The notes under the pieces are model-generated. The model did no database searches and was not told where the DNA came from. It saw only the letters and a program-made list of their open reading frames with translations. Position numbers and translations under genes: made by a program. A DNA stretch of 64,000 nucleotides, taken from Tumebacillus avium (GTDB lineage Bacteria > Bacillota > Bacilli > Tumebacillales > Tumebacillaceae). The stretch spans positions 1,024,501 to 1,088,500 of the forward strand of contig NZ_CP021434.1 of the NCBI RefSeq assembly GCF_002162355.1, read 5' to 3'. Positions within the stretch are counted from its first letter, which is position 1. Each line of letters opens with the position of its first letter. Below, piece by piece: positions 26,628 through 33,280 of this stretch.

Positions 26628-28451
26628 TTAATTGGCCAGCAGCTGTTCGGCCGCGGGCAGGTTGTGCAGCAGTTCTTCAAACTCCGGCGCCGGCAAGGGA
26701 CGCGAGATCAGGTAGCCCTGCATCTCGTCACAGCCGCGCTCGCGCAGCATCTGCTGCTGCATTTCCGTCTCGACGCCTTCTGCGATCACCTTGAGCTTGA
26801 GCGAGTGGGCCATGGCGATGATCGCCGTGGGAATCGCCACATCATGGTGCTCTTCCGTCATGTCGCGGACAAAAGACTGGTCGATCTTGAGCGTCTGGAT
26901 CGGGAACTTCTTCAGATAGTTCAAAGACGAATACCCGGTGCCAAAATCGTCGATCGAGATCCCGATGCCATAATCATTGATCTCGTGCATCGTCGCGATC
27001 GCCCGCTCCACGTTGTTCATCGTGATGCTCTCCGTGATCTCCAGGTTTAGGTACTGCGGCGCAAGGCCGGTCTCCTGCAGGATCTTCTTGATCATCGCGA
27101 CGAGGTTCGGCTGCCCGAACTGGCAGGCGGAGAGGTTGACCGACACGCAGACCGGCGGGAACCCGGCATCCTGCCACGCCTTGTTCTGGCGGCAGGCGGT
27201 GCGCAGCACCCACTCGCCGATCGGGATGATCAGCTTGGTCTCTTCGGCCAGCGGAATGAACTCTGCCGGCGAGACCAGACCGCGCTCCGGATGCTTCCAG
27301 CGGATCAAGGCCTCCATGCCGGTGATGCGCCCGGTCATCAGGCACACCTGCGGCTGGTAGGCGAGGAAGAACTCCTCCCGCTCCAAACCTTTGCGCAGAT
27401 CGCCGGCCAGCACCAAACGCTCTGCCGCACGGGCGTTCATCGCCGCATCGTACAGCTGGTACTGGTTGCGCCCGGCGTTTTTCGCGTGATACATCGCCAT
27501 CTCCGCGTTGCGGTACAAAGTCTGAGCATCATGGCCGTCCTCGGGGAACCGCGAGATGCCAAGCGACAGGTTGATAAACAGCTCCTGATCTTCGACGTGC
27601 AACTTGTCTTTCATCGCCGCAAAAATCCGCTCCGCTGTCAGCGCCGCCTGATCGGAAATCGACGAATCCTGTTCCAGAATCAGCGCAAATTCGTCCCCGC
27701 CCAAACGGTACAGACGCATCCCGGCGGTCAGTTGCTTCGTGATGCGGTTCGTCACCGCCATCAGCACCTTGTCGCCAAACGTATGGCCAAGCGAGTCGTT
27801 AAACATCTTGAAATCATCCAGATCGAAAAACAACACAGCCCCGCGCGCGCCTTTTGCCTGTGCCGTTTCGATCGAAGCGGCCAGATGTTCCATGAACAGC
27901 ACGCGGCCCGGAATCCCGGTCAGATTGTCGGTGGTCAGCTGAAGATAAAACTTATCGGACAACTCCCGCTCATGCTGCAGGCGCTCCTGCACATTGCGGT
28001 AGATCTGCACGAGCAGATAGAACGAGTAGGCGGTCGTCACCACACAGGTCAGACCGATCAACCCAACGGTCGCTTCCAACTCACGGAAGACCGGGCCTTC
28101 AAAATACTTAATGATCAGTGCAAACAGTGAAATCACCAGCATATAGCCATTGGCAACATACATTTTCATACGGAGCCGGTCGGTCACCACATCAAAATCG
28201 GTGAACAGATTGCGGATCATCATCATCGTCAAGAGCAGCGCATTGATCACCAATGCGCGAAGGATCACAACTTCCAGATTCGGCTGCGGTCCCCAAGACC
28301 AGCCGAACAACGCGGCGGCGCGTGCCATTTCCAGCAGCCATAGCCCCGCCATTACACACCCTATTGAGAGCACAGCGCCGATTCCGATGCGAAACACCGA
28401 TCGGCCGACCCTCGTTTGCTTCCCAAACACCCGGCCACCTCCAGCCCCCAT
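26628..28451 (-). CDS. Membrane-anchored GGDEF-EAL cyclic-di-GMP enzyme
   Basis: A 607-residue protein: about four membrane helices (residues 20-150), GGDEF domain (motif GGDEF at 251-255, intact) and EAL domain (EAL at 380-382, plus EITES, DDFGTGYSS, KIDQSFV, EGVET). Both catalytic motif sets are intact, so it may make or degrade c-di-GMP; no RxxD inhibitory site is seen before GGDEF. AGGG lies 8 bases before the ATG. A TATAAT element at 28525-28530 suggests its own promoter. A c-di-GMP riboswitch lies about 600 bases upstream on the same strand. Confidence 0.92.
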   Translation of the reverse strand: MGAGGGRVFGKQTRVGRSVFRIGIGAVLSIGCVMAGLWLLEMARAAALFGWSWGPQPNLEVVILRALVINALLLTMMMIRNLFTDFDVVTDRLRMKMYVANGYMLVISLFALIIKYFEGPVFRELEATVGLIGLTCVVTTAYSFYLLVQIYRNVQERLQHERELSDKFYLQLTTDNLTGIPGRVLFMEHLAASIETAQAKGARGAVLFFDLDDFKMFNDSLGHTFGDKVLMAVTNRITKQLTAGMRLYRLGGDEFALILEQDSSISDQAALTAERIFAAMKDKLHVEDQELFINLSLGISRFPEDGHDAQTLYRNAEMAMYHAKNAGRNQYQLYDAAMNARAAERLVLAGDLRKGLEREEFFLAYQPQVCLMTGRITGMEALIRWKHPERGLVSPAEFIPLAEETKLIIPIGEWVLRTACRQNKAWQDAGFPPVCVSVNLSACQFGQPNLVAMIKKILQETGLAPQYLNLEITESITMNNVERAIATMHEINDYGIGISIDDFGTGYSSLNYLKKFPIQTLKIDQSFVRDMTEEHHDVAIPTAIIAMAHSLKLKVIAEGVETEMQQQMLRERGCDEMQGYLISRPLPAPEFEELLHNLPAAEQLLAN

Positions 28452-28607: not shown

Positions 28608-28642
28608 AAAAAAAGCGGGCAGAAGCTTATTTCGCTTCTGCC
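28608..28642 (-). terminator. Terminator downstream of the 14-codon ORF
   Basis: Stem GGCAGAAGC/GCTTCTGCC followed by CGCTTTTTTT on the minus strand. It would end any transcript coming from the riboswitch before the GGDEF-EAL promoter. Confidence 0.85.
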
Positions 28643-28729
28643 TGGCATCGTGCGGGCGTATGGCAAACCGACATGAAGGAACGATGAACCTTTTGTAAAG
28701 CCTGCATCAAACAGAACTTGCTGCATATA

Positions 28730-28774
28730 CTACAGTACGGACGACATCACCAGTGTTGCGAGTGACTTTTTCAT
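28730..28774 (-). CDS. 14-codon ORF with strong ribosome site (leader peptide or degraded secreted peptide)
   Basis: MKKSLATLVMSSVL then TAG, preceded by GGAGG 7 bases before the ATG. The sequence looks like the start of a signal peptide that stops early. Another frame continues TVVYAASSV, so a frameshifted small secreted peptide is one reading. It is the only ORF with a good site between the c-di-GMP riboswitch and the next terminator. Confidence 0.4.
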   Translation of the reverse strand: MKKSLATLVMSSVL

Positions 28775-28801
28775 TACATGACCTCCTTCTTTTTAAATAT
28801 C

Positions 28802-28832
28802 GACTCCTTCCACCCGGAAGGAGTCCTTTTTT
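28802..28832 (+). terminator. Strong hairpin, terminator-like on the plus strand
   Basis: Perfect stem GACTCCTTCC/GGAAGGAGTC with loop ACCC and T7 on the plus strand. No plus-strand gene precedes it. On the minus strand it lies in the leader of the 14-codon ORF. Confidence 0.6.
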
Positions 28833-28881
28833 GGGCACAAAAAAAGCCCACGACCCACAACAAGCCAGAACATGCAAAGAA

Positions 28882-28915: not shown

Positions 28916-28984
28916 TTTGTGTGGGGGGTAGGGGGATTACAAAAAGGGTAAATGAGTTATGCTACCCGATGAGTCACTGCTGAT

Positions 28985-29007
28985 AAAAAAATCCACCTTC
29001 GGTGGGT
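28985..29007 (-). terminator. Terminator of the c-di-GMP riboswitch
   Basis: CCCACC-GAA-GGTGGAT followed by seven U on the minus strand, about 50 bases downstream of the aptamer. It is the likely expression platform. Confidence 0.8.
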
Positions 29008-29052
29008 TGCCGAGGCGGATACTTTGCAGACTGTGGGGTAACAGTCCGCGAC

Positions 29053-29160
29053 CGTATCAATCAGCAACCTGGCAATCATGGTCAGCTTAGGGAGAGCTGA
29101 CGTTAGACCCATGGCTTTGCGTCGCCGCTTTTCAGCGGGTTTGCCTTTATTGATTGACTC
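29053..29160 (-). ncRNA. Cyclic-di-GMP-I (GEMM-I) riboswitch aptamer
   Basis: On the minus strand the core GACGCAAAGCCATGGGTCTAA carries the GEMM-I signature. It is preceded by GGCAAACC and a hairpin with a GAAA tetraloop (CGCT-GAAA-AGCG), and followed by a second stem (GTCAGCT/AGCTGAC). Outer pairing TCAATCA/TGATTGA closes the element. It binds c-di-GMP and, with the downstream terminator, should control read-through toward the 14-codon ORF and perhaps the GGDEF-EAL gene. Confidence 0.85.
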
Positions 29161-29227
29161 ATCTTATGGCTTTATTATATGCTCGGGGCTACCCGTGAGT
29201 ACATAGGTCTAAAGTCCCGTTTTGAAA

Positions 29228-32038: not shown

Positions 32039-33280
32039 ATGAATAACTCCTCATTGGGAGAACGTATAAAAAAAGCCCGCAAAGAATCGGAGATGACGCA
32101 AAACGATCTCGCGCGGGGTATTGTCACCTCGAGCATGATCTGTCAGATTGAAAACGGCAAAGCATATCCTTCTTATAAAGTGCTGGCTGCTCTCGCCGAT
32201 CGCCTGTCCCGCCCGATCGAATATTTCGTTTCCGATACGGAGACCAATGTACGCCAGCGCTCTTCGTTTACCCTCGCCAAAGCGCTGATGGCTTCCGGCT
32301 CCTATGCGAAAGCGTATTCATTGCTGAAGAGCATGCAAGATTTTGGACAAGGCGAAGCGGATGACTTCCACATGACGCTGGCGAAATGCTGCCAGGAGAT
32401 GGGCAAATACGAAGAAGCGATCGACATGCTGGACAAACTGTTGACCGACACGCATGGCGATCTCAACCAGGCGTTTGCGATCTACCTCCGCCTCGGCGAA
32501 GTGGCCGAGCATTCCGGCCAATACCAGCTCGCCCTCTATCATTGGAAAAAAGCGTACGAGATGCTCGACCGCATCACAGCCGATCCGTTCGACCGCGCAC
32601 AGCTGCTGACTTCGATCGGCAATACGTATCACCGCCTCGGCGTTTACGAAGAAGCGGTAGTGTATTTGCAGCAGGCGTTTGAAGAGCGCAAGGAAAATGT
32701 CTCGCTGGAAGATCTCGGGCGGATGTTCCTCACCTTGTCGCTGACCTATCTTGATTCGAACAACTTTGACCAGGCGACGTTGTTCTCCGACCGCGCCTCT
32801 GCGATTTTCAAAAGCTTAAATCACCTCGACCTCGCGACCGAAGTCAAGCGCTCGCTCGCTGTCCTGCTGGCGAAACAGCATGGCAAGATCGACGAAGCGC
32901 TGGCGATTCTCGATGAGTGCACCGAGCGTTATATGAAGCAGGAAGACCGTTACAACATCGGCCTGACCCAGCTCGAGACCGCCTTCGTCCTGCAGATGGC
33001 CGGCGAGACGGGCACGGCGGTCAGCTTGGTCCGCGAATCGCTGGAGCTGATCTCCGGGGACGATCTGGAACTGGCGCGGGCGCACCGTCTGTTGGCCGAC
33101 CTGTACCGGGCGCAGCGGGACTTGAAAGACGCGATCCATCATCTCTCGCAATCGCTCAACCTCTATCAGAAACACGGCCATTCGGTCGGCATGATGGAAG
33201 CGATGAATCTTTCGGTGTCTCTGTACCAGGAATGGGAGCAGTTCCGCCAAACTACGTTTGAAGAATTGATCACAGCTTAA
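32039..33280 (+). CDS. XRE-TPR transcriptional regulator (RRNPP-like, no peptide gene)
   Basis: A 413-residue protein: N-terminal XRE helix-turn-helix (IKKARKESEMTQNDLARGIV, about residues 9-60) and TPR repeats to the end (GKYEEAIDMLDKLL, GVYEEAVVYLQQAFEE). This is the architecture of peptide-sensing RRNPP regulators (NprR, PlcR) and of the regulator at 50761-52047. AAGGAGG lies upstream of the ATG. No pro-peptide ORF follows: a terminator starts 14 bases after the stop codon. It may be a peptide-independent relative or respond to a peptide encoded elsewhere. Confidence 0.85.
   Translation: MNNSSLGERIKKARKESEMTQNDLARGIVTSSMICQIENGKAYPSYKVLAALADRLSRPIEYFVSDTETNVRQRSSFTLAKALMASGSYAKAYSLLKSMQDFGQGEADDFHMTLAKCCQEMGKYEEAIDMLDKLLTDTHGDLNQAFAIYLRLGEVAEHSGQYQLALYHWKKAYEMLDRITADPFDRAQLLTSIGNTYHRLGVYEEAVVYLQQAFEERKENVSLEDLGRMFLTLSLTYLDSNNFDQATLFSDRASAIFKSLNHLDLATEVKRSLAVLLAKQHGKIDEALAILDECTERYMKQEDRYNIGLTQLETAFVLQMAGETGTAVSLVRESLELISGDDLELARAHRLLADLYRAQRDLKDAIHHLSQSLNLYQKHGHSVGMMEAMNLSVSLYQEWEQFRQTTFEELITA

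Follow-up and report, generated by a model that had tools for sequence, protein, structure and literature searches.

A c-di-GMP-I (GEMM-I) riboswitch of Tumebacillus avium raises the question of what it controls. The normal place of a c-di-GMP-I riboswitch is in front of a protein gene, and here no such gene follows. We suggest that the riboswitch forms the 5′ end of a stand-alone noncoding RNA gene, a reading to which we give a probability of roughly 0.55. The window analysed, i.e., the whole stretch of 64,000 nucleotides of T. avium DNA, was compared with related genomes, as follows. The T. avium genome is G000; together with G001 and G002 it makes up genus g1. These three and four genomes of the sister genus g2, G012 among them, form a family set of seven. 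The order set comprises 14 genomes, including G004-G007 of genus g4 and G008, a further genome outside the seven-genome family. For comparison, 385 genomes from the rest of the class were used.

The Aptamer and the Layout of the Locus

The Rfam covariance search matches the aptamer, read on the minus strand from 29155 to 29060, to RF01051 with 75.5 bits against a gathering threshold of 35, covering all 87 model positions. This is the check that the initial annotation had asked for, and it upholds the GEMM-I assignment; c-di-GMP binding is predicted from the match. The rest of the described layout agrees as well. A terminator, CCACCGAAGGTGG-ATTTTTTT (29005-28985), follows the aptamer, and beyond it the order of parts is hairpins, a 14-codon ORF with a ribosome site (28774-28730), a second terminator (28642-28618), and the GGDEF-EAL gene at 28451, upstream of which there is a TATAAT. 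The statement that the aptamer has no clear protein target holds in G000, because no protein gene lies between the aptamer and the GGDEF-EAL gene; that is, none is found directly 3′ of the aptamer. Features are collected in Table 1.

Table 1. Features of the riboswitch locus in window coordinates.
Feature	Position	Strand	Basis
Candidate activator site: palindrome ACGGGACTTTAGACCTATG, of the ATAGGNC-N4-GNCCTATG type	29202-29220	minus	upstream of 12/12 copies
-10 element TATAAT	29174-29179	minus	invariant in 7/7 family genomes
Outer stem 5′ arm GATGAGTCA, around aptamer and T1	29155-29163	minus	complementary to 28968-28976
c-di-GMP-I (GEMM-I) aptamer	29060-29155	minus	RF01051, 75.5 bits
Antiterminator, GGTTGCTGA..GATAC with GTATC..TCGGCAACC; cannot coexist with extended P1 or T1	29005-29069	minus	RNAalifold, energies
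Terminator T1 with 7-U run (28991-28985)	28985-29020	minus	terminator-like hairpin in 7/7 family genomes
Outer stem 3′ arm TGACTCATC	28968-28976	minus	RNAalifold consensus
Conserved C-rich element CTCATTTACCCTTTTTGTAATCCCCCTACCCCCCACA	28920-28956	minus	core match in 11/14 order genomes; cross-genus match
Strong hairpin D, C-rich loop	28875-28919	minus	covariation in RNAalifold; g4 counterpart is a terminator
Possible terminator T2: G-run and 7-U run; G-run pairs with C-rich element	28839-28850	minus	seen in sequence
Candidate convergent RNA: CTTTTTCATTACATGACCTCCTTC (anti-SD stretch) and terminator 28802-28825 with CTTTTTT	28738-28831	plus	conserved island
14-codon ORF MKKSLATLVMSSVL*, AAGGAGG ribosome site	28730-28774	minus	not conserved as protein
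Deletion junction; about 1.8 kb including the MCP gene missing relative to G002 and G001	28645-28657	minus	genome comparison
MCP 3′ end remnant ...QAEAK*	28627-28644	minus	compared with VEAEAS* (G002), VRAEAK* (G001)
Former MCP terminator	28618-28642	minus	still present in G000

The G000 genome has seven copies of the c-di-GMP-I aptamer. The downstream gene was read for five of the six other copies, and an open protein gene stands close downstream in all five. The copy studied here is thus the exception among those read, having no protein target nearby. Among the five is the second aptamer of the window, at 43294-43205 on the minus strand (79.8 bits); the product of the gene directly 3′ of it is secreted and combines a Cu_amine_oxidN1 domain with acidic, threonine-rich repeats. 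Elsewhere in the window, at 32039-33280 on the plus strand, is a gene for an HTH and TPR regulator; such regulators often act with a partner peptide.

A putative promoter, seen as conserved sequence, would give the RNA a transcription start of its own, predicted at about 29167. Outside the family, the -10 element reads TATAAG or is TAAAAT-like. The palindrome is found some 23-33 nt before the -10 element, and its strict form occurs nowhere else in the genomes of the order; when three mismatches were allowed, matches in the window were not above chance. A gene for a DegU-like regulator of the LuxR family lies near the palindrome, which is a candidate binding site.

A Lost Chemotaxis Receptor Gene

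Searching with the leader DNA finds this sequence in G001 and G002 as well, and the match runs without a break to about 28660. Beyond that point, G002 and G001 contain some 1.8 kb of extra sequence before the region upstream of GGDEF-EAL resumes. The extra sequence encodes a HAMP/MCPsignal protein of 586 aa in G002 and 559 aa in G001. In G000 the reading frame CAG GCA GAA GCG AAA TAA survives next to the junction. The comparison indicates that a chemotaxis receptor (MCP) gene once followed the leader and was deleted in G000, leaving its last codons and its terminator behind. No close copy of this MCP is found elsewhere in G000, where the best match is 45% identical, versus 75% for the G001 orthologue.

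With G001 as outgroup for assigning substitutions to branches, none is specific to G000 and five are specific to G002 in the segment of 316 nt that runs from the -10 element to hairpin D. In two neighbouring genes, G000-specific changes at third codon positions number 24/212 and 10/163 (6-11%). The absence of change would mean either that the MCP was lost very recently or that the RNA is still under selection. Continuing selection is favoured, because G010 also has the RNA without the MCP and because the RNA occurs in genera that have no MCP there.

Occurrence across the Order

The aptamer belongs to a subtype, GAGTCAATCA..GGCAAAC, with GAGTCAATCA directly 5′ of the aptamer, that is present in one copy each in 12 of the 14 order genomes and in 0 of the 385 other class genomes. 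Conservation extends beyond the aptamer to the promoter-like palindrome upstream, to a hairpin, and to a C-rich element, GTAATCCCCCTACCCCCCAC, which shows small differences in some genomes and is conserved at least as well as the aptamer. Its core, CCCTTTT-N(2-4)-AATCCCCCTACCCC, has one exact match each in 11 of the 14 order genomes, and G008 has the variant ATCCCCCACCCCCC; a reversed control of the pattern gave no matches. In a wider scan of genome contigs, the core was confined to three species of Tumebacillus and a single Bacillota MAG. Genus g4 shows hardly any variation from the aptamer through to the C-rich element, while the terminator hairpin that comes next has compensatory changes in 6 of its 14 pairs.

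The gene upstream is constant. It is a small glycosyltransferase-like gene (BLAST E 5e-16 against G007 and 1e-07 against G008), preceded in most genomes by the DegU-like regulator. The gene downstream differs between relatives: an MCP in five (G001, G002, G011, G012, and G013), GGDEF-EAL in two (G000 and G010), PAP2 in four (G004-G007, assigned by a Pfam run on two of them), and a GAF protein gene in one (G008). A cis-regulator is expected to move with its downstream gene. This leader instead keeps its upstream neighbour, and thus the RNA does not appear to be tied to the MCP. A cis role in the relatives that have the MCP is still conceivable. To summarize, the stand-alone status of the RNA has good comparative support, and the RNA seems to have been kept almost unchanged across a bacterial order while neighbouring protein genes came and went.

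RNA Structure and the Predicted Switch

RNAalifold on the seven family genomes gives the outer stem, the antiterminator (GGUUGCUGA..GAUAC with GUAUC..UCGGCAACC), and hairpin D. The outer stem arms are invariant in these genomes, with a G-U variant in G008; the seven genomes vary too little for the arms of the outer stem and of the antiterminator to show covariation. In all seven, the terminator T1 is placed between the aptamer and the conserved noncoding C-rich element.

In energies calculated for the ligand-free RNA, the antiterminator is favoured over extended P1 by about 4 kcal/mol in the three genomes of genus g1, and slightly in G012; in the other three of the four g2 genomes, extended P1 is favoured even without ligand. 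The switch would be OFF at high c-di-GMP, and we infer this best for genus g1, because the antiterminator is energetically better in g1 and not in three g2 genomes. T1 is absent from genus g4 (G004-G007), so the switch mechanism there must differ.

The possible terminator T2 is present in g2, weak in G002, and absent in G001. With the MCP 3′ of the RNA in five family genomes, and with no U-run after hairpin D in G001, a leader role there is possible.

The C-Rich Element and the Search for Targets

The C-rich element is predicted to be unpaired in G001, G004, G005, G007, and G008; in G006, and likewise in the six family genomes where hairpin D is followed by a G-run, part of it is predicted to be paired. 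By analogy with known small RNAs, base-pairing of this element with G-rich ribosome sites is probable. When the ribosome sites of window genes were ranked by pairing with the element, those pairing at least as strongly as the MCP site numbered 2/48 in G002, 5/48 in G001, and 1/48 in G012. As a general mechanism in cis, pairing with the MCP ribosome site fails in G011 and G013, where the pairing is ordinary. The downstream genes of G004, G007, and G008, the PAP2 sites included, show no pairing with the element.

A search of seven genomes for near-perfect complements of the element found, besides the locus itself, only matches with three mismatches and no convincing common target. One such site, GGGGGGAAGGGCGATGAC, directly at the start codon (before ATG), is common to G000 (G000:C1:4146221-4146238, L128) and G002 (G002:C1:683733-683750, L126). 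It is a possible pairing site for the element but is not taken as a target, because the reversed-pattern control gave similar numbers. An Rfam search at a permissive threshold of the part 3′ of the aptamer returned only sub-threshold, chance-level matches.

The Small ORF and a Candidate Convergent RNA

Read on the plus strand, the hairpin at 28802-28825 is followed by a U-run. Every one of the seven family genomes keeps this plus-strand terminator, with changes in its stem sequence; a terminator scanner also found it in G000, G002, and G001. A conserved TATACT-like -10 is present on the plus strand at 28726-28731. Together, these elements suggest that a convergent RNA of some 94 nt is encoded on the plus strand, within 28722-28842. 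Its stretch CTTTTTCATTACATGACCTCCTTC is the antisense of a ribosome site plus AUGAAAAAG, and the 14-codon ORF probably reflects this plus-strand element, read in antisense. In G000 the element carries three specific changes in 66 nt, i.e., it is less constrained than the riboswitch RNA. The ORF was also considered as a truncated signal peptide, having a similar start and, after a frame shift, the ending ...VYAA; the plus-strand terminator explains the island better. A wider search of genome contigs for the exact pattern of the 14-codon region gave no matches.

Alternative Explanations

The initial annotation had offered three interpretations: a small RNA, a micro-peptide, or feedback on the c-di-GMP enzyme by read-through. 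The comparative evidence, namely the order-wide occurrence, the changing downstream gene, and the 0/316 nt substitutions, backs the small RNA; the other two do not fare as well. Control of the 14-codon peptide is very improbable. The ORF does have a perfect ribosome site, and its sequence is kept in the three genus g1 genomes with one synonymous change, but three g2 genomes read Met-Lys-Lys-stop (MKK-stop), i.e., a stop at codon 4, and G012 has a different ORF of 11 codons, MKRRRSCSYYM-stop; the hairpin preceding the ORF, moreover, is the plus-strand terminator. Feedback by read-through into the GGDEF-EAL gene, the next gene in G000 and G010, is equally hard to credit: the MCP lies in between in most family relatives, the MCP terminator at 28642-28618 still stands, and the GGDEF-EAL gene has the TATAAT upstream of it.

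The main rival is that the RNA is an ordinary riboswitch leader of the MCP, orphaned by a recent deletion and now a relic in G000. We regard this as possible, though doubtful. The MCP is directly downstream in five relatives, the C-rich element pairs well with its ribosome sites in three of them (G002, G001, and G012), though not in G011 or G013, and in G001 hairpin D lacks the U-run. However, the RNA is present in genera without an MCP at this place (G004-G008) and in G010, and synteny is kept upstream rather than downstream. The lack of substitutions on the G000 branch, furthermore, would demand a very recent deletion, yet the region between the conserved island and the deletion junction does carry changes. 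It is rather unlikely that the RNA is a c-di-GMP reservoir or sponge, like merRNA of Bdellovibrio, with the C-rich part serving for stability or Rho loading. Bdellovibrio does provide a precedent for a c-di-GMP riboswitch RNA that stands alone and has no ORF (PMC3627812), and the stretch is C-rich and G-poor; for a sponge, however, the aptamer alone would suffice, yet the C-rich element is conserved no less well.

Comparison with Known Systems

In its aptamer score and its terminator/antiterminator platform, kept in this seven-genome family, the RNA resembles the RF01051 riboswitches. It differs from their usual members, which precede a protein gene, in that its conserved partner is a downstream noncoding element. 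The merRNA of Bdellovibrio is a stand-alone noncoding c-di-GMP riboswitch RNA without a downstream ORF, proposed to store c-di-GMP and not found outside Bdellovibrio (PMC3627812). The RNA described here likewise appears to stand alone with a c-di-GMP aptamer; it differs in having a conserved C-rich element and in being kept across an order of Bacilli.

Closest in working are Rli55 and AspocR of Listeria, in which a B12 riboswitch, once its ligand is present, terminates transcription of a regulatory noncoding RNA; Rli55 uses ANTAR hairpins to titrate a protein, and AspocR is an antisense RNA to pocR (PMC8079631). The likeness, predicted here from sequence, lies in a riboswitch-controlled noncoding RNA; the ligand there is B12, and here the C-rich strand is the likely active part. 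The RsaE/RoxS sRNAs have C-rich regions able to pair with Shine-Dalgarno sequences (PMC4409812). They share the C-rich character and contain no riboswitch; the part of the present RNA 3′ of the aptamer has no Rfam match.

The Bc1 riboswitch of the Bacillus cereus group also joins a c-di-GMP-I aptamer to a long platform with two terminators, but it precedes protein genes, and its abstract describes no C-rich element (PMC11218506). Bc1 also shows that a riboswitch of this kind can fail to respond in vivo (PMC11218506), a caution for the OFF-switch prediction. The literature search found no paper on both Tumebacillus and a riboswitch.

Proposed Mechanism and Significance

For the noncoding RNA gene proposed here, both the targets and the sign of the switch are inferred, as follows. 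The first decision would be taken at T1. In the ligand-free RNA, GGUUGCUGAUUGAUAC would pair with GUAUC...UCGGCAACC, forming the antiterminator, and polymerase would read on. With c-di-GMP bound, structure and energies predict that extended P1 takes GGUUGCUGAUUGAUAC, that T1 forms, and that an RNA of roughly 180 nt ends there. The read-through product would be an RNA of roughly 330 nt with the invariant C-rich strand AUCCCCCUACCCCCC and the strong hairpin. Most likely the C-rich segment works as the C-rich regions of RsaE/RoxS do, i.e., it would pair with G-rich Shine-Dalgarno sequences and repress translation. The regulator would thus be on at low c-di-GMP and off at high c-di-GMP. The MCP, often the next gene in relatives, may be one target, deleted in G000 while the RNA stayed unchanged.

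The full proposal, more tentative than the stand-alone RNA itself, is a c-di-GMP-gated, trans-acting C-rich anti-SD sRNA, on at low c-di-GMP and paired in the family with the convergent, antisense-like plus-strand RNA (28738-28831), which read-through transcripts would cover. One messenger could then set two small RNAs oppositely.

Few riboswitches control a noncoding RNA rather than a protein gene, and the only c-di-GMP case found in the literature consulted, merRNA, is limited to Bdellovibrio. The locus also carries a caution: the gene beside a riboswitch need not be its target, as here the neighbour was lost and the RNA stayed. The locus is a compact, testable system. If the proposal is true, it would provide an order-wide case with a candidate seed sequence and would tie c-di-GMP signalling in Bacilli directly to regulation by sRNAs.
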